39,457 bases of DNA from Ulvibacter algarum (GTDB lineage: Bacteria > Bacteroidota > Bacteroidia > Flavobacteriales > Flavobacteriaceae). The notes under the pieces were generated by a model. The model saw only the letters and a program-made list of their open reading frames with translations. It had not been told where the DNA came from and did no database searches. The position numbers were made by a program, and so were the translations under genes. The stretch is from NCBI GenBank assembly GCA_947488905.1, contig CANLBJ010000011.1, forward strand, positions 1-39,457, read 5' to 3'. Shown piece by piece: positions 4,188-37,163 of this stretch (the stretch's first letter is position 1; every line of letters starts with the position of its first letter).

Positions 4188-4233
4188 ATAGAGCTCACTT
4201 CGGAAATATTAATATTTCCGAAGTGAGCTCTAT
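4188..4233. repeat. Perfect 46-bp palindrome made of two inverted CTTCGGAAA words
   Basis: Each 23-base arm is an exact reverse complement of the other, with no loop. The left arm runs ATAGAGCTCACTTCGGAAAT to the centre at 4210/4211. The arms contain SacI-type GAGCTC and the word CTTCGGAAA (4198-4206 and 4215-4223), which recurs across the window. The palindrome lies between divergent rplU and the M16 operon, near neither start, and no U-tract follows. Candidate roles are a protein-binding site, a cruciform, or a relic of a small mobile palindrome. Confidence 0.95.
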
Positions 4234-4465
4234 AATAGACACGAAAAGTCAAGCTAAAAAAACTACTGTAAAACAATGAGGCAATAAAGTTTAGCATATG
4301 CACTAATCCCGTGACATTAAATCTATATATGTAGCTGATTCTTATACACTGCAGTAATAAAAAGACCTTGTTAACTACATCAAATTTTGGCCTTATCTTT
4401 TAATTTCCTTTTCTTAAAGAAGTCCTAAAAATCTCACTATCTAAGGAGAAAAAAGATCTGCTCAC
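4234..4465. other. Intergenic stretch without recognised features
   Basis: This is the remaining part of the 610-base gap between rplU and the M16 operon. It is AT-rich, has no open reading frame of note and no clear hairpin. The rest of the gap holds the rplU promoter, the 46-bp palindrome and the M16 promoter. Confidence 0.6.
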
Positions 4466-4473
4466 TATATTTG
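4466..4473 (+). promoter_or_regulatory. -7 box of the M16 peptidase operon
   Basis: TATATTTG matches TAnnTTTG. The -33 element is not clear. Transcription would begin near 4480 and give a leader of about 64 nt, which contains a small inverted repeat AACGTGTAACGTT. Confidence 0.65.
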
Positions 4474-4543
4474 TAATTGAAACGTGTAACGTTTTTAAAG
4501 TAAAACCAACTAACTGTAACAAGTTAAAACTAAAACCCAATTT

Positions 4544-5887
4544 ATGAAAAAAGTACTTTTAAGTGCAGCATTATCACTAGGCCTTATTGCCAGTGTTAGT
4601 GCACAAAAGGTGGAATTTGAAGAATACACCTTAGATAACGGTCTCCACGTTATCCTTCATCAAGAAAATGCTGCCCCTGTAGTGACAGTAGGTGTTATGT
4701 ATCAAATAGGCGCAAAAGACGAAATTACAGGCCGTTCTGGTTTTGCTCACTTTTTTGAACATTTATTATTTGAAGGAACACCTAACATTGAGCGTGGCGA
4801 ATGGTTTAATATTGTGAGTGCTGCAGGTGGTCGTAATAATGCAAACACTTCTCAAGATCGTACGTATTATTATGAAACGTTTCCGTCTAACAATCTAGCA
4901 ATGGGTTTATGGATGGAAAGCGAACGTATGTACAACCCTGTAATTGAACAAATAGGAGTTGACACACAAAACGAGGTTGTAAAAGAAGAAAAGCGTCAGC
5001 GTATTGATAACGCTCCCTATGGCGCTATCATTTACAGAACGGGTATTGACAAACACCTTTTTAAGACACACCCATACGGGAGATCTGTAATTGGATCTAT
5101 GGATGACCTTGATGCTGCAGAGCTTAAAGAATTTCAAGAATTTAATGACACGTACTACAACCCAAACAATGCGGTATTAGTGGTGACAGGAGATTTCCAA
5201 AAGGAAGATGCTAAAAAGATGATCTCAGATTACTTTAGCACAATACCTAATCTAGCAAAAGAAAACGTACGCACAGATATAGTTGAAGCCCCTATCACAG
5301 AAACAAGATATGCTACTGAGTATGACAGTAACATTCAGATTCCGGCATTTATCTTTTCTTACATTACACCTAAAAGTGTAGACAAAGATGCTTATGTATT
5401 AGATTACATTTCTACTATTTTAACTGGAGGAAATAGCTCTAGAATGTACAAACGTATGGTAGAAGATGAAAAAGTTGCAGTACAGGTTTTAGCTTTTAAC
5501 CAAGCAAACCAAGATTACGGAACTTATACAATGGGTGCTCTTATTAAAGGCGAGCCTGATTGGGATAGCCTTAGAGCAATGATGGATGATGAGATTAGCA
5601 AGCTACAAACAACGCTTATTTCAGAAAAAGAATATCAGAAACTTAAAAATCAATTTGAAACTAGGTTTGTAAACGCAAACTCTAGCGTAGAAGGTATTGC
5701 AGGTTCTCTTGCTACATTTTATATGCTAAAAGGTGGTGACACTAATGGAATAAACAAAGAGTTAGATATGTACAACAGTATTACTCGTGAAGACATTATG
5801 CGCGTTGCTAAAAAATACCTAAACCCTAACCAACGTCTAGAGCTTAAGTACCTTGCAGGTGAAGCTCCAGCAGCATCTAAAAAATAA
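4544..5887 (+). CDS. Secreted M16 family zinc metallopeptidase (catalytic subunit)
   Basis: A 447-residue protein with a signal peptide (cleavage after SVSAQ, about residue 21), so it acts in the periplasm or envelope. It carries the inverted zinc motif H69-F-F-E-H73 (HxxEH) with the distal glutamate cluster NEVVKEEKRQ about 75 residues later, giving a complete active site. The R/Y block near the C-terminal half (GGNSSRMYKRMVEDEKVA) is the second M16 lobe. Paired with the next gene (gap 8 bases), it fits the two-subunit arrangement of mitochondrial processing peptidase and bacterial M16B pairs, one subunit catalytic and one not. The substrate is unknown; peptide degradation in the periplasm is likely. 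Confidence 0.92.
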   Translation: MKKVLLSAALSLGLIASVSAQKVEFEEYTLDNGLHVILHQENAAPVVTVGVMYQIGAKDEITGRSGFAHFFEHLLFEGTPNIERGEWFNIVSAAGGRNNANTSQDRTYYYETFPSNNLAMGLWMESERMYNPVIEQIGVDTQNEVVKEEKRQRIDNAPYGAIIYRTGIDKHLFKTHPYGRSVIGSMDDLDAAELKEFQEFNDTYYNPNNAVLVVTGDFQKEDAKKMISDYFSTIPNLAKENVRTDIVEAPITETRYATEYDSNIQIPAFIFSYITPKSVDKDAYVLDYISTILTGGNSSRMYKRMVEDEKVAVQVLAFNQANQDYGTYTMGALIKGEPDWDSLRAMMDDEISKLQTTLISEKEYQKLKNQFETRFVNANSSVEGIAGSLATFYMLKGGDTNGINKELDMYNSITREDIMRVAKKYLNPNQRLELKYLAGEAPAASKK

Positions 5888-5895
5888 AAAACATC

Positions 5896-7956
5896 ATGAA
5901 AAAATATATTTTATACACATTTGCGTTGGTTCTTACTGGACTCACCGCAACAGCACAAATAGACAGAACAGTAATGCCAGCATCTGGCCCTACACCAGAA
6001 GTAAATCTTGGTGAAACAGATGAGTTTACCCTAAAGAATGGGCTTACTGTTTTAGTTGTTAATGACGATAAGTTACCCTCTGTAACTTTTAGCCTTAACT
6101 TAAACAACCCATCTGTTTTTGAAGGTGATAAAGCTGGAGTACAATCTCTAACCGGTGCTCTTTTAGGTAAAGAAACTCAAAAATCATCTAAAGAAGATTT
6201 TAGCGAGAAAGTAGATTTTCTAGGAGCAAGAGTAAATGTAAGCCCTAATGGAGGTTTTGGTTTTTGTCTTTCAAAATATAAAGATGAAGTATTTGCGCTT
6301 TTTGCTGAAGCAGCTCTTATGCCAAAATTTACACAAGCTGAGCTAGATTTTGAAAAAGAGCAATTAATAGAGAATATTAAAAATGGCGAAAATAGCGCAG
6401 CAGCTATTGCTAGCAATGTTCGTAATGCATTAGCGTACGGTAAAAACCACGCCGCTGGTGAGATTGTTACAGAAGAAACAATAAACAATGTAACTCTAGC
6501 AGACGTAGAAGCTTTTTACAAAAACAGATTTAAGCCATCTAATGGCTATATGGTTTTTACAGGAGACATCACAACAAAAGAGGCTAAGAAGCTTTTAAAG
6601 AAATACCTTAAATCTTGGGAAGCTGGAAAAGTTGAAACTCCCTCTTACCCTGCAACTAGTGATGTAGCGACAACAGAGATTAATTTTGTAGATGTACCTA
6701 ATGCTGTACAAACTGAGTTAGCGATTATGAATATGGTACCGCTTAAGATGAGCGACAAAGATTATCACGCAGCTGTTGTAGCAAACTACATTTTTGGTGG
6801 TGGTTTTGGCTCTTACCTTAATATGAACTTACGTGAAGCAAACGGTTACACATATGGCGCAAGATCTTCTATAGGTAGATCACGTGATTATGACGCAACT
6901 TTTATGGCAACAACTAAAGTACGTAATGCCGTTACAGATAGCGCAGTAGTAGAGTCTTTAAAAGAGATGAAAAGAATACGCACTACAACTGTTGATGCAG
7001 AAACGTTAAAAAACGCTAAAGCAAAATTCTTAGGTAGCTTTATACTTGAGTCTGAAGACAAAGCAGTATCTGCTAGAAGAACAATTAATATTAAAACGAA
7101 TAATCTTCCTGTAGACTTCTACAAAAACTTTATCGCAAATATTAATGCAGTAACACAAGATGATATACAGCGTGTGGCTAACAAATATTTTAAAATAGAC
7201 CAATCTCGTATTGTTCTTGTAGGTAAAGGAACAGACGTGATAGAAGGTATTGAAAACATAATGTGGGAAGGCAAAAAAATACCTGTAAAGTATTTTGACA
7301 AAGATGCAAACCCAACTAAAAAACCTTCTACAGTAGCAATACCTGATGGTGTAAATGCAAAATCTGTAATGGATAGCTACATTAAAGCTATTGGTGGTCG
7401 TGCAGCAGCAGAAGGTGTAAAAAGTTTAGCTTTTGTAGGTGAAGCAGAAATGCAGGGGATGAAATTCCAGGTAGAAAACAAAAACACTGCAAAAGCGCAA
7501 TCTTCTATGGTACTATCTATGGGTGGTAACGCATTACAAAAAACCATTTTTAATGGTAAAGAAGGATACACGTTAGCAAGAGGGCAAAAAATACCTAATA
7601 CGCCAGAACAAAACAAAATGGCTATGCAAGGTGCAATGCCTTTTCCAGAGTTAAATGGCAGCGATATGACCCTAGAAGGAATTGAACCTGTAGACGGTAA
7701 AAACGCTTACGTTCTTGCTACAGGAGATGTTAAAAACTTCTATGATATGGAAACTGGACTTAAATTAAAGTCTACCGTAACAATGTCACAAGGTGAACAA
7801 TCTATGACTGTTGGTACAACTTTTGGTGACTACAAAACAGTGAACGGAGTAAAGGTGCCTCACACTATCGCTATGGCAATGGGACCTCAAGAGTTAAAAT
7901 TTGTAGTATCTAAGGTAATGGTTAACGAAGGTGTTACAGACGCAGACTTCGAGTAA
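5896..7956 (+). CDS. M16 family peptidase-like subunit without HxxEH, with C-terminal lipoprotein-carrier-like domain
   Basis: A 686-residue protein with a signal peptide (ALVLTGLTATAQ). Residues about 40-480 are two M16 lobes: TLKNGLTVLVVND at the start and the typical FGGGFGSYLNMNLRE with NGYTYGARSS in the second half. At the position of HxxEH the sequence is AGVQSLTGALLGK, so the zinc motif is absent and this subunit should be inactive. From about residue 485, MDSYIKAIGGRAAAEGVKSL starts a separate domain of about 200 residues resembling LolA/DUF4292-like outer-membrane lipoprotein carriers. Many Bacteroidota M16 partners have this extra domain. It is co-transcribed with the catalytic subunit and probably shapes substrate binding. 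Confidence 0.88.
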   Translation: MKKYILYTFALVLTGLTATAQIDRTVMPASGPTPEVNLGETDEFTLKNGLTVLVVNDDKLPSVTFSLNLNNPSVFEGDKAGVQSLTGALLGKETQKSSKEDFSEKVDFLGARVNVSPNGGFGFCLSKYKDEVFALFAEAALMPKFTQAELDFEKEQLIENIKNGENSAAAIASNVRNALAYGKNHAAGEIVTEETINNVTLADVEAFYKNRFKPSNGYMVFTGDITTKEAKKLLKKYLKSWEAGKVETPSYPATSDVATTEINFVDVPNAVQTELAIMNMVPLKMSDKDYHAAVVANYIFGGGFGSYLNMNLREANGYTYGARSSIGRSRDYDATFMATTKVRNAVTDSAVVESLKEMKRIRTTTVDAETLKNAKAKFLGSFILESEDKAVSARRTINIKTNNLPVDFYKNFIANINAVTQDDIQRVANKYFKIDQSRIVLVGKGTDVIEGIENIMWEGKKIPVKYFDKDANPTKKPSTVAIPDGVNAKSVMDSYIKAIGGRAAAEGVKSLAFVGEAEMQGMKFQVENKNTAKAQSSMVLSMGGNALQKTIFNGKEGYTLARGQKIPNTPEQNKMAMQGAMPFPELNGSDMTLEGIEPVDGKNAYVLATGDVKNFYDMETGLKLKSTVTMSQGEQSMTVGTTFGDYKTVNGVKVPHTIAMAMGPQELKFVVSKVMVNEGVTDADFE

Positions 7957-7970
7957 TACACTTATTATTT

Positions 7971-7979
7971 CTTCGGAAA
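7971..7979 (+). repeat. Intergenic copy of the CTTCGGAAA word
   Basis: This copy lies between the M16 stop and the terminator. It is one of 13 copies of this word in the window; the others are listed in the findings. Confidence 0.9.
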
Positions 7980-7991
7980 ATTTAATGAATC

Positions 7992-8023
7992 AAGACCGTC
8001 AATTATTTGGCGGTCTTTTTTTG
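7992..8023 (+). terminator. Terminator of the M16 operon, overlapping the 3' end of the EamA gene
   Basis: AAGACCG (7992-7998) pairs with CGGTCTT (8011-8017), extended inward by T-G and C-G pairs, and is followed by a run of seven T. The stem contains the last codons of the convergent EamA gene, so the two ends are compactly shared. Confidence 0.9.
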
Positions 8024-8884
8024 TTTTCTATTTGCTAGATACACCCCAAATATAATAAGGCTCGCAGCTCCTATTTGAGAAATCCCAAATTGCTCTCCAT
8101 CTAACAAACCCCAAAACAAAGCCACAATAGGTATTAAATACGTCACAGAAGTCGCAAAAACAGGAGTACTTATTTGCACCAGCTTATTAAACAACACCTT
8201 TGCTACACCAGTGCCAACCACAGCTAATATTAAAAGATAACCCAACGAAGTCATCACCTCTTCATTAGCAAGAATGTCCTGCTCAAAAAAGCCTGACAAC
8301 AATAGCACCACAAAAGCAGGAATAATCAAAACAATAAAATTACCTACAGCAATCCCAAAAGCAGATATATTCTGTAAATGCCTTTTAATAATATTTACAT
8401 TTACTCCATAACAGAGAGACGCTCCTATCACTAGTAAACTATACCAATAATTTTGACCAGGGTTAAGTGTTGCTCCACTCCATATTAACAATATACTACC
8501 CAGCAATCCAACAATGACACCCACAAGCTGGTTGCGAGTAAACCCAATGCTAAACACAAACACCCCGAGCAGTAAGGTTATAATAGGCACTGTAGAGTTT
8601 AAAACAGACACTACCGCACTATCAATTTCTGTCTCTGCAAAAGCAAAAAGAAAAGCAGGAATAAAAGTTCCTAAAAAAGCAGAAATACTAAGCCATTTCC
8701 ATTTGTCTTTTGGGATGCCTTTTAAATGCTTAAAGCCAAAAGCTAGTAAAAAAGTTGCAGCAAAAAGCGTTCTTAAAGCACCTAACTGCATTGCAGTAAG
8801 CCCTATTAAAGATTTTTTAATAAGTATAAACGAACTCCCCCATACTATGGAAAGGATGATTAAGTAAAGCCATTTTTTTTGCAC
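8003..8884 (-). CDS. EamA/DMT family inner-membrane exporter
   Basis: A 293-residue protein with ten predicted membrane segments arranged as two EamA repeats of five. The first opens with LIILSIVWGSSFILIKKSL and the second with YWYSLLVIGASLCYGVN. The family exports amino acids and other metabolites, but the substrate cannot be told from sequence. The start is GTG at 8884, directly followed by a Lys-rich stretch, and no alternative ATG lies nearby. Upstream, CATCTTTGC at about 8900 is one base from a -7 box. The C terminus ends in NRKQKKTAK, cytoplasmic by the positive-inside rule. Confidence 0.9.
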   Translation of the reverse strand: MQKKWLYLIILSIVWGSSFILIKKSLIGLTAMQLGALRTLFAATFLLAFGFKHLKGIPKDKWKWLSISAFLGTFIPAFLFAFAETEIDSAVVSVLNSTVPIITLLLGVFVFSIGFTRNQLVGVIVGLLGSILLIWSGATLNPGQNYWYSLLVIGASLCYGVNVNIIKRHLQNISAFGIAVGNFIVLIIPAFVVLLLSGFFEQDILANEEVMTSLGYLLILAVVGTGVAKVLFNKLVQISTPVFATSVTYLIPIVALFWGLLDGEQFGISQIGAASLIIFGVYLANRKQKKTAK

Positions 8885-9565: not shown

Positions 9566-9573
9566 TTTTAAAA

Positions 9574-11457: not shown

Positions 11458-12528
11458 TTAGTCATTATTAAACGGCAGAAACTCATCAATAAAATTACCA
11501 ATTAACACCGGCACTGCTTTTTGTTTTACCTCCTTAATAGTCATCATTTGGTCCATCTCAGTATTTAAATTTACAATCCAAAACCGCGTATGCAAATGCT
11601 GGTGTGATAATTTATGGATCACTGCAGCTTCATTATATAAGGAGACAGCCCCAATATCCCAATCTTTAATTTGACTTCGGAAATTTTCTTCTTCAAGTAA
11701 TTGCTCTTCATTTACTAATTGTGAAGTCTCTATTAATGGAAACTGAAATAGATTTTGCCATATCCCCTTTCCCTCTCTTTGTTCTAAAAGCGTTAGCTTA
11801 TCTTCAGATAACGGAACTAAGAAATTAAAGTAGCGGCTTCTAACCTTGGTTTTTTTCAACTTAACTGGTAGTGTAGTTACCATATTATTTCTGAAGGCAA
11901 CACAACCATCTTTAAACACACAAGTGTTACAATCTGGGTTTTGAGGCAAGCAATGTCTTGCACCAAACTCCATCATTGCTTGATTATGATCACTAGGTTG
12001 TGAAGGATCTAATAATTGTTGAGCAAGTATTTTAAACTCTTTAATCCCTGCGGTTGTACTAATAGGTGTATCAATACCAAAATAACGAGATAAAACCCGG
12101 TACACATTACCATCTACTACAGCTGTAGGCTCATTAAAACAGATGGACGCAATGGCACTTGCCGTATAATCGCCTACACCTTTAAGCTTTAATATTTCAG
12201 AATAAGTACTAGGAAAAACACCATCAAGGTCATTTATCACATATTTTGCAGCTGTATGAAGGTTGCGGGCACGAGAGTAATAACCTAGGCCTTGCCATAA
12301 TTTTAAAACAGTTTCTTCTTCTGCGTTTGCTAAGTCTTTAATAGTAGGAAATGCCTCAATAAATGCAAAATAATAAGGAGTTCCCTGTATTACACGTGTT
12401 TGTTGTAGAATAATTTCTGAAAGCCAAATAAAATAGGGATTAGATATACCACGCCAAGGCAAATCGCGTTTGTTATGCAAGTACCATTTAATGAGTGTTT
12501 TAGAAAATTGAGGGCTTATTTTTGGCAT
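11458..12528 (-). CDS. mutY: A/G-specific adenine glycosylase MutY
   Basis: A 356-residue protein. The HhH-GPD fold contains E38 in LSEIILQQT (catalytic acid), helix-hairpin-helix LKGVGDYTA (residues 115-123), and D139 in VVDGNVYR. A [4Fe-4S] loop follows, C193-x6-C200-x2-C203-x5-C209. The C-terminal NUDIX-like domain (about 225-350) reads 8-oxoG opposite the mispaired adenine. All key residues are present, so it should be active in repairing A:8-oxoG pairs. It heads the ssb-gldE-gldD operon and shares a 130-base spacer with the divergent HU gene. Confidence 0.97.
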   Translation of the reverse strand: MPKISPQFSKTLIKWYLHNKRDLPWRGISNPYFIWLSEIILQQTRVIQGTPYYFAFIEAFPTIKDLANAEEETVLKLWQGLGYYSRARNLHTAAKYVINDLDGVFPSTYSEILKLKGVGDYTASAIASICFNEPTAVVDGNVYRVLSRYFGIDTPISTTAGIKEFKILAQQLLDPSQPSDHNQAMMEFGARHCLPQNPDCNTCVFKDGCVAFRNNMVTTLPVKLKKTKVRSRYFNFLVPLSEDKLTLLEQREGKGIWQNLFQFPLIETSQLVNEEQLLEEENFRSQIKDWDIGAVSLYNEAAVIHKLSHQHLHTRFWIVNLNTEMDQMMTIKEVKQKAVPVLIGNFIDEFLPFNND

Positions 12529-14954: not shown

Positions 14955-15446
14955 TTATTCTTCTTCTTGATTTTTAAGATTTCCGAAGGTACCTTCTTTA
15001 AAGTGCTTTAAAAATTTGACTAACTCTGTAGGGTAAACGTCATGATTATTTAAAGGTAGTAGCGATAAAGAATTACTCAAATGAACAATTTTAAATGTAT
15101 CATTATCAAGAGCTAAGAGAAACACGGTGCGTAACTTATCAAACTCTGGAGCATTTTCAAAAATAGGTATATGCCAATAAGAAATAACCGTAACAAGAGT
15201 ATACCCATGTTTAATTTCTTGAACATTGCAATCAAAAATAGTTATTTTAAATGGTACAGGTATTTCTTTATAATCGTGTTTAAGAGCATCTATCCAGCTT
15301 TCTCTGTCATAAATTTTAACAGAGATACCATCTAATCCCATAAAATCTTTATCGTAAAGTGAAATCACACTGAGGTCCCTTTTGCTATAAGATTTCAAAT
15401 AATCTCTAACAAATTTTTCAGGCATAACAAGGTTTTCGCTTTCCAT
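14955..15446 (-). CDS. NTF2/SnoaL-like protein
   Basis: A 163-residue cytosolic protein without signal or membrane segments. FVRDYLKSYSKRDLSVISLY resembles the first helices of the NTF2-like cone, followed by strands GYTLVTVISYWHIPIFEN and TVFLLALDNDTFKIVHLSNS. The fold often binds small ligands or serves as a sensor domain. No catalytic residues can be assigned, so the assignment is to fold only. A CTTCGGAAA word lies in its last codons, encoding T-F-G-N. It is a single gene convergent with rng. Confidence 0.6.
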   Translation of the reverse strand: MESENLVMPEKFVRDYLKSYSKRDLSVISLYDKDFMGLDGISVKIYDRESWIDALKHDYKEIPVPFKITIFDCNVQEIKHGYTLVTVISYWHIPIFENAPEFDKLRTVFLLALDNDTFKIVHLSNSLSLLPLNNHDVYPTELVKFLKHFKEGTFGNLKNQEEE

Positions 15447-19068: not shown

Positions 19069-20475
19069 TTACTTATTCTCTGGAATCACTTTAGCGTCTT
19101 CGCCCTCTAATTCCTTTCCTTTTAAGTAATCTGGTAATTGCATACCTGCCATATTAAACATCTCTTGCAATGGTGGCACAGAACCATACATTCCAGAAAT
19201 AAAGTTTGAGGTTGCTGTTTTACCGTCTTTTCCTCCACCGTTTTCCCAAACAGTTACTTTATCAATTTTTATGTTTGCAATCGCTTCTGCTTGCGTCTTC
19301 ACTAATTCTGGTAGTTTATCTGCTACTAGTAAAAGCACCGCATCTTTTGGGTTGTTTCCTGCAGCTTTCACTATTTGATCTAAACCTTGTGCTTGTTTTG
19401 TTAAGATCTCAAATAGACCTTGTGCTTCTGCTTGCTTCTTAAAAAGAATTGCATCTGCCTCACCTCTTGCTAATCTTCTAATTCTTTCAGCTTCAGCTTC
19501 TGCATCAATTTCTACTTTTCTTTTATCAATCTCTGCTGGTACAATAATATCTGCTTGTTGTGTACTACGCTCTCTTTCTGCACGAGATATTTCTGCTTCT
19601 TTTTCTGCTGAATAAGATTCTTCTAAGGCTTTTGCCGTCTGTACTTTTTCCGAAGCAATGGCAACTCTACCTGCTTCTGCTTCTCTTTGTCTTCTTAAAG
19701 AATCTGAGTTTGCAACCGCAATTTTTGCTGTATTCTCTCCTTCTACTGCTTTTGCATTTGCTGCTGCTACCTGTGTTCTTTCATCTTGTACTGCGTTTGC
19801 CTCACCAATAGAACCATCTCTAGTTTTCTCTGCAACAGACTTACGTGCCGCGTTAATTGCGTGTGCTGCAGCTTCTTTACCTAAAGCCTCAATATACCCA
19901 GACTCATCAACGATATCTGTAATGTTTACGTTGATTAATTTTAGACCTACTTTTTTAAGTTCGCTCTCAACACTGTTAGAAATGTTAGTTAAAAACTTGT
20001 CACGGTCATTGTTAATCTCTTCAATATCCATAGATGCAACTACAAGACGTAATTGACCAAAGATAATCTCCATTGCTAGTTCTTGAATCTCCTGTTGACC
20101 AAGACCTAACAGACGCTCTGCAGCATTTTGCATTACTCCTGGCTCTGTAGATACACCAATAGTAAAACGAGATGGCACATTTACACGTATGTTTTGCTTA
20201 CTTAAAGCGTTTACTAAGTTTACCTCTATTGAGATAGGTGTTAAATCTAAAAACTCATAATCTTGAATTACTGGCCAGATAAAAGCAGCCCCACCATGTA
20301 TACACCTGGCAGAGTTTCCAGAACCTACTTTACCATAAACTACAAGTATACGGTCTGACGGACACCTTTTATACCTGCGTATAAAGGTTACGATAATAAT
20401 AAAGAAAAATAAAATTGCGAATCCTATTGCGGCTAAACCTGCAAAAGCTTCTAGTTGTAATGGTAGTGTTAGCAT
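19069..20475 (-). CDS. Flotillin-like SPFH membrane scaffold
   Basis: A 468-residue protein. One N-terminal membrane segment (FAGLAAIGFAILFFFIIIVTF, about 11-30) is followed by an SPFH domain (about 30-200: CPSDRILVVYGKVGSGNSAR, PSRFTIGVSTEPG, VNVNITDIVDESGYIEALG). The long Ala/Glu/Arg-rich coiled coil (about 210-350) carries flotillin EA repeats such as KAVEGENTAKIAVANSDSLR. The C-terminal region ends in a hydrophobic stretch near GMYGSVPPLQEMFNMAG. Flotillins organise membrane microdomains (YuaG/FloT in Bacillus, with NfeD partner YuaF). The gene follows NfeD with a 1-base gap, so the two are translated together. Confidence 0.95.
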   Translation of the reverse strand: MLTLPLQLEAFAGLAAIGFAILFFFIIIVTFIRRYKRCPSDRILVVYGKVGSGNSARCIHGGAAFIWPVIQDYEFLDLTPISIEVNLVNALSKQNIRVNVPSRFTIGVSTEPGVMQNAAERLLGLGQQEIQELAMEIIFGQLRLVVASMDIEEINNDRDKFLTNISNSVESELKKVGLKLINVNITDIVDESGYIEALGKEAAAHAINAARKSVAEKTRDGSIGEANAVQDERTQVAAANAKAVEGENTAKIAVANSDSLRRQREAEAGRVAIASEKVQTAKALEESYSAEKEAEISRAERERSTQQADIIVPAEIDKRKVEIDAEAEAERIRRLARGEADAILFKKQAEAQGLFEILTKQAQGLDQIVKAAGNNPKDAVLLLVADKLPELVKTQAEAIANIKIDKVTVWENGGGKDGKTATSNFISGMYGSVPPLQEMFNMAGMQLPDYLKGKELEGEDAKVIPENK

Positions 20476-21350: not shown

Positions 21351-22496
21351 TTATGGTTTTTGTAAAATCACACTCACAGCATTACCGCCAAAACCTACCG
21401 CATTTACCATTATTGTTTTTAACTGCTCTGGCAAATGTCTCGCATTGCTATAAAATGGATTTTCTATAAATGTATTATGTTGCAACATTAGTACCGCCAG
21501 CTCTACACTAAACAAACCACTTGCCCCAAAGGTGTGCCCTAGCATCCACTTATTTGAAGTTAATAGAGGAAGCTGTTTCTCAAAAACAATATCTATTGCA
21601 TTCTTCTCAGCGCGATCTCCTTTTGCGGTTCCTGGCGCGTGCATTACAATCGCGTCAACCGTTTTTAGGCCAGCAGAAGCAAGAGCTCGCTTCATAGAAT
21701 TCTGAAAGCAATCTGCATTTTCAGAGATTGAGCTATTATGTTTTAAAATTTCTGAAGCAAAACCATAACCACTTATTAAGGCTAGTGCGTTTTTTGTAAC
21801 CCCACGCTCCAATACTGCCATTGCAGCACCTTCTCCTAAAACCATACTGTTTATAGTTTTTTCAAACCTCATAGACTCGCAGGCAAGATGACTGTAAGAT
21901 TTTGAGTATAATTTTAAAGCCTTCATTTGGGCCATTGTAAATGGCGTTAGCGCCGCCTCGCTACCTCCCACTAAAAAAGAATCTGCCATTTCTGCTTGCA
22001 ACCAAGCAATACCATTTAACATTGCATGCATCGCCGTTGAGCAAGTTACAGAGTGGTCTATTGTCACGCCATCTAGGCCTAAATCTTGGGCAACCCAAGA
22101 TGATATGTTCCCTAAAGTTGTGGTGGGTGACGCAAATGGCGACACCTTATCTCTCGCTAAAAACTGTTTGTGATAGCCTTCAAATAAACCCGTTGCGCCT
22201 CTAGAAGAACCTATATTCACGCCTACATTTCCCTTCGGAAATTTTAACAACTTGACACTTGCACGCCCCATTAACATGGCTAACAATACCGTTCTGTCAA
22301 GGTTTTTAAACGCAGGTTTTTCTGCGATTAATTGAGTAATCTCAGCTTCATTTTTTTCTGAAACTCTTGACACCCAGTCTCCTTCCATCTTTGAAAAAAG
22401 TCGCTTTTTATCAATATAAGTTTGCCAAACCTCTTCTGGCGTATTACCTAAAGCAGAGATTGAATTAATTGAAGAAATAGAAATGGGATGTAACAC
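21351..22496 (-). CDS. Beta-ketoacyl synthase (FabF-like) adjoining the biotin genes
   Basis: A thiolase-fold condensing enzyme of about 380 residues. Counting from a TTG at 22517, the active site is C159 (DHSVTCSTAMHAM), H293 (VMHAPGTAKGD) and H328 (LGHTFGASGLF), the C-H-H triad of KAS I/II. The 22517 start is inside a promoter -7 box, so I choose the next in-frame start, GTG at 22496, which gives VLHPISISSINSISALG, close to the usual family N terminus. The gene has its own promoter, divergent from a Coa1-like gene. A role in making the pimeloyl chain for biotin is suggested by position but not shown; ordinary or polyunsaturated fatty-acid or pigment synthesis is an alternative. Confidence 0.85.
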   Translation of the reverse strand: MLHPISISSINSISALGNTPEEVWQTYIDKKRLFSKMEGDWVSRVSEKNEAEITQLIAEKPAFKNLDRTVLLAMLMGRASVKLLKFPKGNVGVNIGSSRGATGLFEGYHKQFLARDKVSPFASPTTTLGNISSWVAQDLGLDGVTIDHSVTCSTAMHAMLNGIAWLQAEMADSFLVGGSEAALTPFTMAQMKALKLYSKSYSHLACESMRFEKTINSMVLGEGAAMAVLERGVTKNALALISGYGFASEILKHNSSISENADCFQNSMKRALASAGLKTVDAIVMHAPGTAKGDRAEKNAIDIVFEKQLPLLTSNKWMLGHTFGASGLFSVELAVLMLQHNTFIENPFYSNARHLPEQLKTIMVNAVGFGGNAVSVILQKP

Positions 22497-25539: not shown

Positions 25540-26751
25540 TTATTCATGTTTCAAAACGTCCATTTCTAGAAGGGTTCTTAATGCGCTAACTAAATCTGTA
25601 ATCTCAGTATTCGTATTATAACTATGTACACAAATACGCAGACGCTCAGCTCCTTCAGCTACCGTAGGTGATAGTATAGGCTTTACATCAAAACCCATAT
25701 TTTTTATAGCTTCGGAAATATTCTTGACTTGATTATTGCCCGGAATCACACAACAATGAATGGCAGATTTACTTGCAATAAAATGAGCATCTAATTGATT
25801 TTCTTTAATAGCGCTAAGTAATATTGCAATATTACTTTTTAAATCTATTCTTGTTTGATTGTTTATAGCTAGTTCTTTATAAGCTGCACATATAGTTGCT
25901 ACCGAATGAGGAGGTAATGCTGTCGTGTAAATAAAGCTTCTCGCAAAATTTATTAAATAGCTTTTTAAATCTGATTTGCATAAAACAGAAGCTCCGTGAC
26001 AACCCAGCGCTTTTCCGAAGGTAATAATTCTTGCAAAAACTTCATTTTCTAATCCTAATTCTTGGACCAGTCCCTCTCCATTTTTTCCGCAAACTCCTAT
26101 AGCGTGTGCTTCATCTACTATTAAATGGCAATTGTTCTCTTTTGCTATTTGAGCTATTGCTTTAAGATCTGGCTGATCACCATCCATAGAGAAGATGGAT
26201 TCTGTTACAATGTATATATTTTGGTCTTGGGAGGAAGACCCTCTCTGTCCTGCAGACATCTCTCCCAGAGGGAGAGAGTTAGTACTCTTTTTGTTTATTA
26301 GCCTGGTTAAATCTTCAAGGTCATTATGAGCAAATTTATAAGACTTTGCATTGCTCATTTTGATACCATCTCTTATAGAGGCATGACATAACTCGTCGTA
26401 TAAAATGACATCACCTCTTTGAGGTACACTACTAAAGAAACCTAGGTTTGCATCATAGCCACTATTAAAGAGTAGCGCATTTTCACTATTATGAAAATTA
26501 GCGATAGTTACTTCTGCGTCTTGGTAAATCTCGTAATTACCTGTTAAAAGTCTTGAACCTGTGGCTCCATTTACTTCAAGGTTGTGACGTTTTAAAATTT
26601 CGGAAGTTTCATTAAAGATATTTTTGTTCTTACTAAAGCCTAAATAATCATTGCTTGAAAAGTCAATGAATGTATTAGGCGTACCTAGTTTCCGAAGTAA
26701 ATTTTCATCTACTCGATTTTGTAATCTTTTATTTAGTTTATCTGGTAACAC
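25540..26751 (-). CDS. bioF: 8-amino-7-oxononanoate synthase BioF with an in-frame repeat insertion
   Basis: A 403-residue PLP enzyme that condenses pimeloyl thioester with alanine to KAPA. FSSNDYLGFS, NGATGSRLLTGNYE and LIVDEAHAIGVCG (D213) are signatures, and K247 (TFGKALG) forms the aldimine. Residues about 156-177 (STNSLPLGEMSAGQRGSSSQ) are extra compared with typical BioF of about 385 residues and coincide with a palindromic DNA element. The start is GTG at 26751, immediately behind a -7 box, so the mRNA may be leaderless. Three CTTCGGAAA words lie in this gene. Confidence 0.95.
   Translation of the reverse strand: MLPDKLNKRLQNRVDENLLRKLGTPNTFIDFSSNDYLGFSKNKNIFNETSEILKRHNLEVNGATGSRLLTGNYEIYQDAEVTIANFHNSENALLFNSGYDANLGFFSSVPQRGDVILYDELCHASIRDGIKMSNAKSYKFAHNDLEDLTRLINKKSTNSLPLGEMSAGQRGSSSQDQNIYIVTESIFSMDGDQPDLKAIAQIAKENNCHLIVDEAHAIGVCGKNGEGLVQELGLENEVFARIITFGKALGCHGASVLCKSDLKSYLINFARSFIYTTALPPHSVATICAAYKELAINNQTRIDLKSNIAILLSAIKENQLDAHFIASKSAIHCCVIPGNNQVKNISEAIKNMGFDVKPILSPTVAEGAERLRICVHSYNTNTEITDLVSALRTLLEMDVLKHE
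26221..26286. repeat. Palindromic repeat inserted in frame in bioF
   Basis: On the coding strand it reads CTCTCCCTCTGGGAGAGATG then CTGCAGGACAGAGAGGGTC. CTCTCCC/GGGAGAG is a hairpin stem, CTGCAG a second palindrome, and GACAGAGAGGG partly repeats the first arm. It translates without a stop as SLPLGEMSAGQRG, between the conserved HNDLEDLTRLI helix and the IVTES strand. Similar palindromic insertions in coding regions are known in Bacteroidota as a general phenomenon. No second copy is visible in this window. Confidence 0.75.
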
Positions 26752-31570: not shown

Positions 31571-31601
31571 GGTTAAAATAAGGTTTTTTTGAGGGTTTTT
31601 T

Positions 31602-31610
31602 CTTCGGAAA
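31602..31610 (+). repeat. Intergenic copy of the CTTCGGAAA word
   Basis: Lies upstream of the atpD promoter and runs on as CTTCGGAAATTTT, the extension shared with copies at 11675 and 22233. Otherwise the 305-base gap 31478-31782 shows only the atpD promoter. Confidence 0.9.
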
Positions 31611-31782: not shown

Positions 31783-32823
31783 ATGCGCTACACAAAAATC
31801 CCCAACACAGACCTTAAAGTTTCAAAAATATGCCTTGGCTCTATGACCTGGGGAAGACAAAACACAGAAGTAGAAGGTCACGATCAAATTGACTTTGCTT
31901 TAGATAAAGGAGTAAACTTTATTGACACTGCAGAGATGTACTCTGTACCTTTTACTATGGAGACTTATGGAGCTACAGAAAAAATTATTGGGTCTTGGCT
32001 AGCTAAAACTGGCAGAAGAAAAGACATTGTTCTCGCCTCAAAAATTACTGGACCAGGGCGTGGCATATTTTCAGACATCAGAGAAAACTTAGATTTTAGT
32101 GCAGTATCAATAGAAGATGCATTGCACAAAAGCTTAAAGCGTTTGCAAACAGATTATCTAGACTTATACCAACTACACTGGCCAGAGCGCGCTGTAAATA
32201 TTTTTGGTGTTCGTGATTATAATCACAAACCTAACGTAGCTTGGGATGATAACATTTCAGAAATACTAGAGAGACTTGAGGGTTTTGTTAAAGAAGGAAA
32301 AATAAGACATATAGGTCTTAGCAATGAAACTCCTTTTGGGGCAATGCGCTATATGGAAGAACACCGTAAAGGAAAACTTAAAATGGTTTCTACCCAGAAT
32401 GCTTACAATCTTCTGCAACGTAGAGATGATATAGCACTTGCCGAAGTACTGCAAATGGAGAACATAGGCTACTTACCTTACTCGCCTTTAGCTTTTGGCG
32501 TATTAACAGGAAAATATCTAAATGGAAAGATGCCTGAAAACTCTCGTGTTTCAAAATTTCCTGCCTACTCAAGATACTCTAGCGAGTCTTCTACAAAAGC
32601 AACAAAGGCTTATTATGAGATTGCAAAAAAACACGGCTTGAGCTTAACACAACTTGCGCTAGCTTTTGTAAATGATAGACCTTTTGTTACTTCAAATATT
32701 ATAGGAGCAACAAATCTTGAGCAACTTTCAGAAAACATAGGGAGTATTGATATTCAACTTTCCGAAGAAATATTGCAAGAAATTGAAGCGGTACACGTGG
32801 CAATCCCTAATCCTGCAGCTTAA
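31783..32823 (+). CDS. Aldo/keto reductase (Tas-like)
   Basis: A 346-residue TIM-barrel oxidoreductase. The catalytic tetrad is D48 (FIDTAEMYS), Y53, K87 (LASKI) and H132 (YQLHWP). The NADPH-binding end has IGATNLEQLSENI. The long insertions (VPFTMETYGATEKIIGSWLA) are of the Tas subfamily. The substrate is unknown. It has a single-gene layout, with a CTTCGGAAA word in the last 70 codons encoding L-S-E-E. Confidence 0.93.
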   Translation: MRYTKIPNTDLKVSKICLGSMTWGRQNTEVEGHDQIDFALDKGVNFIDTAEMYSVPFTMETYGATEKIIGSWLAKTGRRKDIVLASKITGPGRGIFSDIRENLDFSAVSIEDALHKSLKRLQTDYLDLYQLHWPERAVNIFGVRDYNHKPNVAWDDNISEILERLEGFVKEGKIRHIGLSNETPFGAMRYMEEHRKGKLKMVSTQNAYNLLQRRDDIALAEVLQMENIGYLPYSPLAFGVLTGKYLNGKMPENSRVSKFPAYSRYSSESSTKATKAYYEIAKKHGLSLTQLALAFVNDRPFVTSNIIGATNLEQLSENIGSIDIQLSEEILQEIEAVHVAIPNPAA

Positions 32824-32933: not shown

Positions 32934-34019
32934 ATGTTTTCAAATTCTATACTCAATTTAAACTCTGTAAACAGTGAGCTACAAAGTGCACTACAATCTA
33001 GCCTCTTAGAGTTTGGAGAAGAGAGGAGCAATGCCGATTTCTGGGCTATGAGCAGTCTGCAAAGTAACGTAGAAGCTGCAGCAAAAAAAATAACAGCAAG
33101 CCAGTTTAGTGGGTTTGGTGGGCCGGGAGATCCGCCTGGAAAAGGGTTTAAAATATCTTTTGGACTCCAAATTTTAGTAGGTTATAAAGTAAGATATAGA
33201 GCAAATGCAAATCTTGGTTACGGTAATAGATGGGGAAATTTTGGAGCAACATCTTCGCTTCATTTTTCTGCTTATAACGGCGGTTTGGGCACCGGAATAA
33301 ACAAAAAAAATCTCGTAGTAGATTTAACCGCAGCAGTTAATTTAACTGTAGGTGGAGGCTATGGCACTCCTTTGCAATCCTACTCACTCAACTATAACTC
33401 TGCAATACCTATGTTAAATGATTTTCAAAATTCTTTTAGTTACGGACAGCTATTAACCTGGAATTCTGGTTTAAATGAAAATCAATTTTCTCTTGATAAA
33501 CTTCAAAGAGAAGGAATGATAGGTTTTAGATTAGGTGATGTTAACGTGAGTAGTAATAATGATACACGTAGGGCATATTTTGGGGGAGGTACAGACATGG
33601 GTTGGACCGGCGGCATAAGCGTAGCTACTCCTTTTTTTGAAGTTGGTTTTCAAGATTTTTCTGGAGATTATTTAAAAGATGCCCCAGAAGAAGTGAAAAA
33701 AGATAAAATAGGTCAAGAGATTAAGGCAATAAAAAAAGATGAGAGTCTCACTAAAGATGAAAGAAAAGAAAAAATCGCTGTCTTAGAAAAAGAATTAAAA
33801 GAACTAACTTTTCATAAATTTCACAATCAATCTGCTTATCAAAAAAACCTTAATAAGGCCTCTACTTATTTGCGCATAAACAACTCAAATGAGTTTGGCG
33901 CTACCGTAGATTTAATAGGAGATGCTTGGCTACAAAATGCCATACATAGAGCTATTAAAGATTTTAGATTTGAGTACGATCTTAAAAGTACAGAGGTATG
34001 GCGTGGAAAAACCTGGTAA
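32934..34019 (+). CDS. Probable type-23 polymorphic toxin-like protein
   Basis: A 361-residue protein counted from ATG 32934; an upstream GTG at 32889 would add 15 residues, and I prefer the ATG. No signal peptide. A short N-terminal helical part (about 1-60) ends in a Gly/Pro hinge GGPGDPPGKG. Residues about 72-246 then show YNGGLGTGINKKNLVVDLTA, YGQLLTWNSGL, QREGMIGFRLGDV and YFGGGTDMGWTGGIS, which I recognise from memory as the bacterial toxin 23 domain. A charged helical insertion (about 250-300, DKIGQEIKAIKKDESLTKDE) and a last segment follow. There is no large delivery domain, so release or secretion is unexplained. The next gene overlaps it by 22 bases. Confidence 0.65.
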   Translation: MFSNSILNLNSVNSELQSALQSSLLEFGEERSNADFWAMSSLQSNVEAAAKKITASQFSGFGGPGDPPGKGFKISFGLQILVGYKVRYRANANLGYGNRWGNFGATSSLHFSAYNGGLGTGINKKNLVVDLTAAVNLTVGGGYGTPLQSYSLNYNSAIPMLNDFQNSFSYGQLLTWNSGLNENQFSLDKLQREGMIGFRLGDVNVSSNNDTRRAYFGGGTDMGWTGGISVATPFFEVGFQDFSGDYLKDAPEEVKKDKIGQEIKAIKKDESLTKDERKEKIAVLEKELKELTFHKFHNQSAYQKNLNKASTYLRINNSNEFGATVDLIGDAWLQNAIHRAIKDFRFEYDLKSTEVWRGKTW

Positions 34020-34567
34020 TATATACTTGCATTGCTTTTTGCTTAATAGGGTGCTCTAGTTTATTTAAAAATTATTACACAAACGATGAAGGTGGCAATA
34101 GACCTAAACAAGCAAAATTTACATTAAACAATCCTTCTTATAATTTACAACAAGAAGATTTAATTGATAAAAATGCTGTGTATGTAAATACGTCTTACAT
34201 TTATTATGGCGGCAAAACACATACTGATTATCACTACCTAAGATTTTTTAAAAATGGGCGTTATATGGAAGATCTAGTGTCTAAAAAAGAAGATCTTACT
34301 GTATCCACTTTTAACAAGGTTAATAATGCTTTAATGATAGGTTATTTTACAATTGAAAATAACGACTATTTAAATTTAGAATATTTCAGAGTAAAATATG
34401 GTGAAGGTGGGTTTTATGATAAAAGGCAAGGTTTTGTAAAAAACGATAGTATTTTTCTTTATTACGGTAACGTTATAAACAACAACTTCCCCTCTCCTAC
34501 TTCACAAAATTGTAGAGTATATGTAAAAAGAGAAGTAGCAGATTTACAAGGAACACCAGACTGGTAA
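33998..34567 (+). CDS. Lipoprotein overlapping the toxin-like gene; candidate immunity protein
   Basis: A 189-residue protein with lipobox LIGC (Cys19). The mature part is beta-rich (NAVYVNTSYIYYGGKTHTDY, YMEDLVSKKEDLTVSTF). It starts inside the preceding gene (22-base overlap), so the two are translated as a pair. Immunity genes typically follow their toxin directly. A lipid anchor would place protection at the envelope, which suits a toxin that acts in the periplasm or at the membrane. No family is recognised; immunity is an inference from position. Confidence 0.75.
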   Translation: MAWKNLVIYTCIAFCLIGCSSLFKNYYTNDEGGNRPKQAKFTLNNPSYNLQQEDLIDKNAVYVNTSYIYYGGKTHTDYHYLRFFKNGRYMEDLVSKKEDLTVSTFNKVNNALMIGYFTIENNDYLNLEYFRVKYGEGGFYDKRQGFVKNDSIFLYYGNVINNNFPSPTSQNCRVYVKREVADLQGTPDW

Positions 34568-34580
34568 TCATTATAAATTA

Positions 34581-35789
34581 TCAAGACGTCATCCATTTTT
34601 TTAATTGAGTATAAACCTTTGGATTACTCAATAAACCTACGTGATTTGTCTCATAAACTATAAAGATATTTTCTTCTTTGAAATTTAATTTTTTTGACGA
34701 TTTTCTATGTATTCCTAAAGCGCTTTTGGTACTTACTAGATTATCTCCAAAACGCTGTTTAACTTTTGATGCTGTCTCTTTTACTGCAACTCCAGCTACA
34801 TTGTAGCTTGCTACTTTTTCAGGTAACGGTACGTGGGTTCTTTGATCTCCTTTTATAGCGTGCTGATCAATATCTTGCCAGTCTTCATCTAAAAGATTGC
34901 CATACCTTAAATCTGTAACACCAGCACCTCTTATTTTTGCCAATCGTGCAAAAGGTTTGGCATAAGGTATTGCCTTTAAAATTACCTCTACATAATTACC
35001 AGCTCTCTCTAGTGAAGCACCATGATGTGGTGTTCCTAGAAAAACTATCTTATTAAGCTTTTTAGTCCAAGTCTGCTTTTGTTGCTGCCCATAATGCACA
35101 GCACTGCGAGTAACTAGGCCTCCCATACTATGTGCGATGATGGTGATTTCTTTAACGGTAACAGGCCACTCTTTAACTAGTTGTTCTAATAATGTTGTTA
35201 ATTCTTGCCCATTAGTAGAAATATGTCGCCCACTATTATAGTTAAGAAATAGAAGGGTTTTATTAAACTCTTTTGCTAATGCTACACCGTGATTATGGTC
35301 ATTTTGAGTCCATTGCTGATCACTTAAGCAAGAGCCGTGAACCATTAATAAAATTTTATCTGTGACAGCAGTAGATGTCTCTTTTATCTTTTTCTTTTTT
35401 AAAGGCAACTCTTTACCTTCATTCTTAAACTGCATATCTATTTTTAAAGGATTATCTGTTTTAACCAGATAATCTCCTATCAATCCATTTAATAAGGCTC
35501 TTGTTACTTGTCTCTCGTCTTTAGTCTTAATGGTACCCAACACAGAAGATAATTTACCTAAGGCCATATCTGCACCTTTACCTATAAACTTAGAACTCCA
35601 TCTTATATTTTTATAAGCCATCCCCGCAATATCTGTTATTAGATGTTGCACAGGAGTAGATGGTAATAGAGGAGGATGCACAATACGTCTGTGCATTGCC
35701 TCAACAAGATCTGTCACCTCTAGTGTAGCATCAACGACTAATCGTGTGATTCCTTGAAGTTGAGAGTCTGGCTGTTTTTTGTTAGACAA
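34581..35789 (-). CDS. Alpha/beta hydrolase, lipase-like (PGAP1/esterase type)
   Basis: A 402-residue cytosolic protein. A long N-terminal region (1-140) of unknown fold is followed by the hydrolase: oxyanion segment LLMVHGSCLSDQQW (147-160), nucleophile elbow AHS221MGG, and the strand KIVFLGTPHHGASLERAG. The late His of YETNHVGLL near the end completes a Ser-His triad. It is probably an esterase or lipase of unknown substrate. It converges with the toxin pair (13-base gap). Confidence 0.88.
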   Translation of the reverse strand: MSNKKQPDSQLQGITRLVVDATLEVTDLVEAMHRRIVHPPLLPSTPVQHLITDIAGMAYKNIRWSSKFIGKGADMALGKLSSVLGTIKTKDERQVTRALLNGLIGDYLVKTDNPLKIDMQFKNEGKELPLKKKKIKETSTAVTDKILLMVHGSCLSDQQWTQNDHNHGVALAKEFNKTLLFLNYNSGRHISTNGQELTTLLEQLVKEWPVTVKEITIIAHSMGGLVTRSAVHYGQQQKQTWTKKLNKIVFLGTPHHGASLERAGNYVEVILKAIPYAKPFARLAKIRGAGVTDLRYGNLLDEDWQDIDQHAIKGDQRTHVPLPEKVASYNVAGVAVKETASKVKQRFGDNLVSTKSALGIHRKSSKKLNFKEENIFIVYETNHVGLLSNPKVYTQLKKWMTS

Positions 35790-35880
35790 TTTGATGCTTT
35801 TTTTAACTTTAAAAACTAATAATGTGTACTTAAAGATACAAGCAAAAAAGTTTAAATAGGATTAATATTTTTGAATTAGT

Positions 35881-35900
35881 TATATATATATATATATATA
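35881..35900. repeat. TA dinucleotide repeat, ten units
   Basis: Ten TA units lie about 90 bases upstream of the hydrolase start and about 38 bases past the terminator of the CHU_C gene. Its length could vary by slippage and change hydrolase promoter spacing, though no promoter elements are certain there. The rest of the 228-base gap holds only that terminator. Confidence 0.9.
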
Positions 35901-35937
35901 TGTGATAATTTTAAATTTCTTGTGACCTATAAATTAA

Positions 35938-35971
35938 AAACCACTATCTCTAAGATTAGAAAAAGTGGTTT
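35938..35971 (-). terminator. Terminator of the surface-protein cluster
   Basis: On the minus strand AAACCACT pairs with AGTGGTTT around an 18-base loop and runs into TTTTTAATTT. It lies 47 bases past the CHU_C gene stop. Confidence 0.75.
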
Positions 35972-36017
35972 AAAAAATTTATTTTATTCTGAAATATTCT
36001 TTTAATAAATCATTCTT

Positions 36018-37163
36018 TTAGCGATTGATATAAAAAGGCCCAGCCATATCATCTCTGCCATTTATTTTTAATACATAATAATACGTTCCTACTGGTAATG
36101 TATCGCCCTCTTTTAAAGTAACACGACCATCAGACAAACCGTCAAAAGAATTATCATACCCACTCTTGCGATACACCTCTACACCCCACCTATTATAAAG
36201 AATCAACTCATTGTCTGGAAACGCCTCTAAACCTCCAATTATCAAAAAGTCATTATCACCATCTCCATTAGGAGTCATTATATCATACACAATAATAGAA
36301 GCTCCCGCTTTTAAAACAGAACCAATAGTTATAATCTCATATGTATTAGGTATAAAATTTTCTGATGTAATTGTTCCAGTCTCAAAGTCTCCTGTAGTTT
36401 GAACGTTACCTAAATCTTCCCATTTTTGATTGCTTATAGAAAAACCAACCACTCTAAGATCGTTTAATGTATTTGCTAAAATAGACACTAAACTTTGAGA
36501 ATCCCAAGTAAGTTTTGCTTGTGTATTTTCTGTACCATTTAAATCCCAAAATTCTTGTTCGCTAATAATACTTAACTCAGGCACAAAACTACTCGTGTTA
36601 AAGTCATCATTAAATGTTGACGCACTGTTTGGGTCTTCATAGAAGTAAGCAGACTGAAATCTCTCACTAGTCATACTCGCGGGAATAACTGAGAGTGGCC
36701 TTAATCTGTAATCATCACCAATAGGGAATGTAAAATCTAACTCGCCAGTTACAGTGGCATAACCATCTGTATGTCTATCATCGTTTTCTCCAAAGTATAA
36801 ACTGTTGTTTAGAAAATCTAAATTAACATTTAAATTGTTTCGAGGTGTTATTACTAAACCTTGAATGTAGTCTATCATATTAGTAACACCTACAGAAACC
36901 TCAAGATTAAGGTTGTCAACTACAGAAACCTCCATGTCTTTAAACACAGGTCTATTTGATCCAGAAACGGTTAAGTCATTATCGGTATTATAAAAACCAG
37001 CAAGGCCCTCATTGTCATCAAAGTCTCCGTTGTTAATTACATCAACGTGAAAACCAATAGCCCCATTGTCGTGTATTTTAGCATTTCCGAAGTTATGAAA
37101 AGCATCTTGCGCAAAACTAACTTGGAATACTAGAAAGGATAGTATATAGATTAATTTATTCAT
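36018..37163 (-). CDS. Secreted protein with type IX CHU_C sorting domain
   Basis: A 381-residue protein with a signal peptide (LVFQVSFAQ, cleavage near residue 19). Residues 20-290 form a beta-rich body with many Asp/Asn loops and no known domain (GFHVDVINNGDFDDNEG, FTFPIGDDYRLRPLSVIP). The last 80 residues are the gliding motility-associated C-terminal domain: MTPNGDGDNDFLIIGGLEAF, ELILYNRWGVEVYRKSGYDN, PVGTYYYVLKINGR. It should be exported by the type IX system. It follows the collagen-like gene by 3 bases and is last in the cluster. Confidence 0.93.
   Translation of the reverse strand: MNKLIYILSFLVFQVSFAQDAFHNFGNAKIHDNGAIGFHVDVINNGDFDDNEGLAGFYNTDNDLTVSGSNRPVFKDMEVSVVDNLNLEVSVGVTNMIDYIQGLVITPRNNLNVNLDFLNNSLYFGENDDRHTDGYATVTGELDFTFPIGDDYRLRPLSVIPASMTSERFQSAYFYEDPNSASTFNDDFNTSSFVPELSIISEQEFWDLNGTENTQAKLTWDSQSLVSILANTLNDLRVVGFSISNQKWEDLGNVQTTGDFETGTITSENFIPNTYEIITIGSVLKAGASIIVYDIMTPNGDGDNDFLIIGGLEAFPDNELILYNRWGVEVYRKSGYDNSFDGLSDGRVTLKEGDTLPVGTYYYVLKINGRDDMAGPFYINR

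Follow-up and report, generated by a model that had tools for sequence, protein, structure and literature searches.

The window analyzed here is a stretch of 39,457 nt from contig CANLBJ010000011.1 of Ulvibacter algarum (Flavobacteriaceae). It has 13 copies of the 9 nt word CTTCGGAAA, which is probably a DNA uptake sequence. Nine of the copies are in open reading frames (ORFs) and four are intergenic. The ORFs come from a plain longest-ORF rule, and the gene names used for the window are read off their translations, without a database search. Copies 1 (positions 4198–4206, plus strand) and 2 (4215–4223, minus strand) form the left and right arms of an inverted pair. They are in the gap that separates two divergent ORFs, rplU-like on the minus strand and M16-peptidase-like on the plus strand. 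The two copies are head to head with 8 bp between them and are part of a perfect 46 bp palindrome (positions 4188–4233, pairing counted by hand). Copy 3 (7971–7979, plus) is intergenic, flanked by two convergent ORFs, and copy 11 (31602–31610, plus) is between a divergent atpD-like ORF (minus) and an aldo/keto-reductase-like ORF (plus).

The nine copies in ORFs are found in both orientations relative to the reading frame. Sense copies, all on the minus strand, are copy 5 in a 163-aa ORF (14980–14988, peptide TFGN), copy 6 in a flotillin-like ORF (19647–19655, ASEK), copies 9 and 10 in a bioF-like ORF (26012–26020, TFGK, and 26689–26697, LRKL) and copy 13 in a surface-protein-like ORF (37084–37092, NFGN). 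Antisense copies are copy 4 in a mutY-like ORF (11675–11683, plus, NFRS), copy 7 in a ketoacyl-synthase-like ORF (22233–22241, plus, FPKG), copy 8 in the bioF-like ORF (25710–25718, plus, ISEA) and copy 12 in the aldo/keto-reductase-like ORF (32759–32767, minus, LSEE). Copies 4, 7 and 11 run on into the extended form CTTCGGAAATTTT, an extension that the initial annotation of the window had described for some copies.

That annotation had also listed 13 copies with a strand split of 6 to 7, and a search of the window yields exactly 13 matches with every coordinate as listed, six on the plus and seven on the minus strand. The ORF copies fill all six phases and encode the varied peptides that were named. 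The estimate of well below one copy by chance agrees with dinucleotide shuffles of the window (n = 100; mean 0.25, maximum 2, none reaching 13) and with an order-3 Markov expectation of 0.11. The assumed G+C content of about 37% is slightly high, as the measured value is about 35%. Regularity of spacing had been proposed as a check; the copies appear to be spaced roughly at random, with a mean distance of 3.9 kb and a coefficient of variation of 0.87.

The genome to which the window belongs is an assembly of 3.55 Mb in 33 contigs. It has 817 copies of CTTCGGAAA, 408 forward and 409 reverse, compared with 58 copies (26 forward and 32 reverse) of the reversed word, which serves as a control. Four word-free gaps of more than 12 kb, considered as possible foreign islands, are listed in this genome. 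Finer counts come from a 439 kb sample that consists of 400 kb of contig C1 and the window. Here CTTCGGAAA is present 111 times, where an order-3 Markov model expects 1.0, and it ranks first among 9-mers. An order-5 model, which already holds much of the word itself, expects 37 copies; the word then ranks second, after its overlapping neighbor TTCGGAAAT. The top 10-mer at order 3 is CTTCGGAAAT, with 84 copies compared with 0.25 expected. Most of the 27 one-base variants of CTTCGGAAA have only a handful of copies.

The distribution of the 111 copies between genes and gaps shows a strong intergenic excess. While 9% of the sequence is intergenic, 42 copies are found there, about four times their share (p = 5e-16). 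The other 69 copies are in ORFs and use all six phases, with sense +2 the most common (28 of 69). The recurrence of FGN/FGK and SEI peptides and the lead of the sense +2 phase are what would be seen if codon usage or base composition produced the word by chance. This explanation is rejected, with a probability close to nil, on the basis of the shuffles, the Markov counts, the scarcity of the reversed word and the use of all six phases together with the enrichment between genes. The two outcomes that had been named as telling against a DNA signal, i.e., a genome frequency close to a third-order Markov expectation and coding copies explained by codon usage, are therefore not what is seen. In two other genomes the proportion of intergenic copies is 58 of 163 (Patiriisocius marinistellae, placed in the same genus as the window) and 10 of 23 (Psychroserpens damuponensis).

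Alignment of the intergenic copies from U. algarum and P. marinistellae (n = 100) reveals base tracts on both sides of the word. Upstream, T peaks at positions −9 to −2. Downstream, T peaks at +9 to +12 (89% at +9 and 84% at +11) and again at +19/+20, and A peaks at +13/+14 (77% at +13) and at +22 to +24. With 125 intergenic control sites anchored on GGAAA, none of 1000 resamples matches the tract pattern, although each resample draws 100 of the 125 rows and the variance is thus understated. The 174 coding copies are also above their own GGAAA-anchored control (1000 resamples). Farther out than the tracts, base frequencies are close to background, and no longer repeat unit is therefore visible.

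A terminator, a promoter, a regulator site or a remnant of some mobile repeat was also considered. The 42 intergenic copies are in accord with such an element, as are the perfect palindrome formed around copies 1 and 2 and the head-to-head orientation of seven of the nine close pairs in U. algarum and P. marinistellae. However, divergent, tandem and convergent gaps each have the share of copies that their length predicts, with no excess in convergent gaps. Most copies moreover are in ORFs, in all phases, and lack a longer repeat unit. An element of this type is very unlikely.

The word may also be compared with the target of a DNA methyltransferase or a restriction-modification system, or with an abundant word of the HIP1 type that is kept by mutation or repair bias. 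HIP1 of cyanobacteria is a very abundant short palindromic word that is present both within genes and between them. Either model fits a word that, like CTTCGGAAA, is short and fixed and is found on both strands, in coding as well as intergenic DNA. The heart of CTTCGGAAA, TTCNGAA, is near-palindromic, and the A/T-centered form TTTCAGAAA is enriched too. The full word, however, is asymmetric, with 115 copies of TTCGGAAA compared with 6 of TTCCGAAA in the 439 kb sample, and specific flanking tracts to about +24 are unexpected for a methylase target. Genomes usually avoid restriction sites and do not accumulate them. The chance that a methylase target or a HIP1-like word is the correct explanation is small.

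A comparison of U. algarum with P. marinistellae, which have about 74% identity over the aligned part, shows how individual sites change. Exact conservation is more frequent for CTTCGGAAA (6 of 31 aligned copies) than for its anagrams (12 of 280 sites; Fisher p = 0.005). For the one-base variant CTTCAGAAA and the reversed word the corresponding values are 0 of 24 and 1 of 4. The word is kept at the level of the genome, with hundreds of copies in both species, while most single sites come and go. This combination of upkeep and turnover is as expected if an uptake bias supplies the word.

The word was then counted in 397 genomes from 237 genera of the family, evenly drawn from a larger group. 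A genome is termed word-rich when it has at least 150 copies of CTTCGGAAA and at least three times as many as the reversed-word control. At least 31 genomes in 20 of the 237 genera are word-rich (table read by eye; the genome of the window is included), with strands near balance. A second set, which overlaps the first, consists of 30 genomes with named records picked out of 80 loci, and 17 of them are word-rich. Among these are P. marinistellae (967 copies compared with 42 of the control, strands 499/468), U. antarcticus (1166 and 93) and P. damuponensis (1134 and 62), and also Altibacter lentus, Cochleicola gelatinilyticus, Marixanthomonas spongiae and seven of nine Aequorivita. Psychroserpens mesophilus (180 and 74), Leeuwenhoekiella, Maribacter and Meridianimaribacter do not reach the threshold. 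In a survey of the order (196 genomes, about 166 of them outside the family), no genome outside the family has both 150 copies and a threefold excess. The six genomes listed for genus g277 of family f5 (G508, G522, G544, G557, G571 and G607) have a mild excess of CTTCGGAAA, 143–171 copies compared with 46–68.

A search with the RNase G gene from the window yields Flavobacteriaceae. On a tree of RNase G the word-rich genomes are within a group of Aequorivita, Marixanthomonas, Ulvibacter and Patiriisocius, with P. damuponensis apart, and six changes account for the pattern; locus L034, with a ratio of 2.98, is tagged word-rich on this tree yet is outside the 17 of 30. Weaker members of the same group are UBA1903, Thermobacterium, Luteirhabdus, Halomarinibacterium, A. 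xiaoshiensis and A. sinensis. Within the genus of the window, five small-genome relatives (G001, G002, G004, G007 and G010) have no enrichment and a sixth genome, G003, is barely enriched (57 and 50). The comparison with relatives that the initial annotation had called for thus places the enrichment in many Flavobacteriaceae genera and not in the genome of the window alone.

A genome-wide word that is found about every 4 kb and has an extended motif like that of a protein site might be bound by a protein of chromosome organization, segregation or recombination, of the kind known for Chi, KOPS, matS or nucleoid-protein sites. Along the 400 kb of contig C1 the strands are used 50 times (plus) and 48 times (minus), and GC skew is negative in 8 of 10 bins. 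As the strands are balanced on a segment with mostly one-signed skew, the word does not look polar (the replichore is not established), in agreement with the near-equal strands of the whole genome and with the earlier annotation, which had argued against Chi or KOPS. Site turnover and the many lineages without enrichment are also odd for a core chromosome function. A site of this kind is considered quite improbable.

The best explanation, with a probability of roughly 0.78, is that a clade of Flavobacteriaceae has CTTCGGAAA as its DNA uptake sequence, in the arrangement T-rich/CTTCGGAAAT-n-TT-AA/then T and A tracts. A genome-wide, non-polar signal had been proposed for the window, with an uptake sequence named first. 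The count, strand balance, frame independence, flanks, turnover and clade distribution all support that proposal, and they favor the uptake option over a restriction or methylation target or a nucleoid-protein site. In the mechanism envisaged, a surface receptor of a natural transformation system would bind the asymmetric core of 9–10 bp in double-stranded DNA, with phased AT tracts 3' of the core aiding the binding or bending of the DNA at the outer membrane. DNA of kin that carries the word would be favored over other DNA in uptake and in recombination, with ComEC and DprA. Such a bias, acting over evolutionary time, would fill the genome with the word as far as the encoded proteins permit, while single sites arise and vanish.

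The machinery for such a process was searched for in Flavobacteriaceae genomes. ComEC is present in 39 of 40 genomes, word-rich and word-poor alike, and is therefore rejected as a discriminating gene. DprA is found in 14 of 14 genomes, that of U. algarum included. Seven of 41 genomes, spread across the word-rich and word-poor ones, have a match to the pilus/secretion ATPase family PF00437 that reaches the cut-off (L193–L199). Only two of 14 word-rich genomes (G316 and G454) are among these, and a type IV pilus is rejected as the general receptor on this ground. No PF00437 match above the cut-off was found in U. algarum, P. marinistellae or U. antarcticus, and ComP itself was not searched for. 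A receptor other than a pilin is likely.

A transposon screen of Riemerella anatipestifer found eight genes essential for transformation, and its authors report that pilus homologs are absent (PMC8459023). The eight encode a CarboxypepD_reg outer-membrane protein, the adjacent DUF5689 protein, a protein with HHH, one with DUF1343, ComEC, DprA, ComF and RecA (PMC8459023). Contig C1 of U. algarum encodes a 953-aa CarboxypepD_reg protein (L009:15248–18109). The gene that follows after about 35 bases encodes a protein of 728 aa, in which two DUF5689 stretches and a choice-of-anchor-J domain are recognized. The 728-aa protein has a lipoprotein-like start when inspected by eye, and a lipoprotein family model matches it below the cut-off. 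The two genes are arranged as in R. anatipestifer, with homology suggested by domain names and gene order, and the 953-aa partner is predicted to be a barrel outer-membrane protein by analogy with that species (PMC8459023). The layout suggests a SusC/SusD-like pair. This outer-membrane protein and DUF5689 lipoprotein are the candidate receptor, by analogy. Matches above the cut-off for the DUF5689 family, PF18942, are present in 37 of 41 genomes, and a comparison of DUF5689 with solved structures gave no match at E values up to 1.

Fifteen genomes were examined for other abundant words, with 80 kb taken from each. The word that leads is CTTCGGAA, in this or a related form, in P. marinistellae, U. 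antarcticus, P. damuponensis, G022 and G017. In G006, of the same genus as the window, CTTCGGAA is found beside AAAGCCGAAA (loci L169–L172), and AAGCCGAA, a form of AAAGCCGAAA, leads in an Aequorivita xiaoshiensis locus (L055). Aequorivita loci are orthologous to one another, so that pooled counts are not independent and were not used. AAAGCCGAAA is possibly a dialect that shares TTCGG, and the differing words among relatives resemble dialects. Of the remaining eight genomes, seven have no word of comparable strength in their 80 kb, and the spread filter left G228 without a list. The 80 kb from the small-genome relative G007 reveal no clear replacement word. Genome G274, from a genus poor in CTTCGGAAA, has 29 strand-matches of GCGAAAGCGG in 140 kb, 14 intergenic and 15 in ORFs (L125–L128 and L252–L254). 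GCGAAAGCGG is the heart of a 22 bp palindrome, TTCCGCTTTCGCGAAAGCGGAA, which can be counted on both strands, and the number of places may thus be less than 29. This word may be of a different kind from the dialects. The form TTTCAGAAA has seven copies in the window, at 5619, 12414, 12687, 17560, 22355, 32255 and 32726. Eighteen of its 98 copies in the 439 kb sample are intergenic, twice the expected share, and it is strongest in word-rich genomes. It may be a weaker or older dialect. Separately, positions 37595–38033 of the window have collagen-like GPQG repeats in a surface-protein-like gene, which produce long open frames on the opposite strand and are probably the source of the GGTCCTCAAG repeats.

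An uptake sequence explains most of these observations, but a number of them weigh against it. Five one-base variants of CTTCGGAAA are themselves in excess in the 439 kb sample: CTTCAGAAA (42 copies, 7.5 expected), CTTCTGAAA (18 and 7.5), CTACGGAAA (10 and 2.3), CTGCGGAAA (8 and 2.0) and CTTCGGCAA (7 and 1.2). The second word, TTTCAGAAA, is enriched at 98 copies compared with 11 expected and is left over; it is exactly conserved with P. marinistellae at 9 of 44 sites, more often than anagrams. Also left over are relatives that lack the intergenic excess or the AT tracts. The excess is not significant in Ulvibacter antarcticus (6 of 57), G022 (2 of 17), G017 (2 of 9) and G006 (2 of 14), and U. 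antarcticus and G022 prefer G, not T, after the core and have no downstream tracts. Where tracts are present their spectrum is broad (8–11 bp) with no sharp helical period, and the claim is therefore limited to alternating tracts roughly one helical turn apart. Close pairs (< 60 bp, any orientation) are only about twice as frequent as at random (3 compared with 1.4 in U. algarum, 6 compared with 2.8 in P. marinistellae). The per-base identity of aligned words is no better than that of their flanks (0.681 and 0.693; for anagrams, 0.714 and 0.739). A mild excess is present outside the family, the nearest genome to the threshold being G557 (147 copies compared with 46). For none of the word-rich species did a literature search yield data on uptake or transformation.

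The gene content adds to these points. Four wordless genomes of the same genus (G001, G004, G007 and G010; 77–89% complete) keep ComEC, DprA and DUF5689, and hence none of the four families checked (PF03772, PF00437, PF18942 and PF02481) tracks the word. A DUF5689 tree was rejected as a predictor of dialect, since word-rich and word-poor labels mix on it, with seven changes in a count that leaves out four weak genomes (labels ending in w). The tree has 31 rows and leaves out G010, G311, G435, G274, G020 and G097, which have a PF18942 match, and G009, which is marginal. As this tree does not sort by the word, it is by inference that the outer-membrane protein and DUF5689 lipoprotein pair is assigned as the reader of the word during uptake.

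A broader proposal, tentative and at somewhat less than even odds, is that the word represents a third system for recognizing self-DNA, independently evolved and the first one known outside Proteobacteria. Its reader would be a surface DUF5689 lipoprotein together with a SusC/SusD-like outer-membrane protein, in place of a type IV pilin, and there would be clade dialects across the marine Flavobacteriaceae. The same signature in many genera of the family, most of those tested being without a pilus ATPase, would imply a third origin and a different class of receptor. Convergence, drive and dialect formation could then be compared across phyla, and gene exchange among marine flavobacteria would be sequence-biased. 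The word also is a practical lead for attempts to transform marine flavobacteria. A literature search, with thin coverage of subscription journals and preprints, revealed no description of an uptake sequence from Bacteroidota.

Among known systems, HIP1 shares with CTTCGGAAA an abundant short word in genes and gaps, but it is palindromic, without an asymmetric core or AT tracts, and its host is taxonomically distant. The uptake signal sequence (USS) of the Haemophilus type has the core AAGTGCGGT. The core CTTCGGAAA is unrelated to this or to known dialects, its host is of the phylum Bacteroidota, no pilus ATPase exceeds the cut-off in U. algarum, and the AT tracts are missing in U. antarcticus and G022. 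The features in common with the Pasteurellaceae USS are a 9 nt core, high copy number, two AT-rich downstream segments and clade dialects (PMC12616744, PMC7811141). According to a 2025 paper, uptake sequences are so far confined to Neisseriaceae and Pasteurellaceae, where type IV pilus proteins read or pull the DNA (PMC12616744). The Haemophilus USS is described there as a 9 nt core with two downstream AT regions and a type IV minor pilin, ComN/PpdA, as predicted receptor, and the Neisseriaceae DNA uptake sequence (DUS) as an uninterrupted motif, about 13 nt at most, that the pilin ComP reads (PMC12616744).

With the DUS, CTTCGGAAA has in common a short word in genes and gaps, clade dialects and some head-to-head pairs, which are common for DUS (PMC3630211). 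It differs in having a discontinuous motif with AT tracts and few inverted pairs, and PF00437 has no match above the cut-off in U. algarum. Riemerella, classed by its authors in the Flavobacteriaceae, is naturally transformed, and a preference for its own DNA has been measured in R. columbina (PMC7965970). It shares with U. algarum ComEC, DprA and the adjacent CarboxypepD_reg outer-membrane protein and DUF5689/choice-of-anchor-J protein (PMC8459023). It differs in that no uptake word has been identified in it, though no search by name for a Riemerella genome was made; the published k-mer table gives the most numerous k-mers, all A-rich or A/T-rich (PMC7965970). Because a pilin receptor is not indicated here, CTTCGGAAA is described as working like an uptake sequence and is not assigned to the DUS or USS families.

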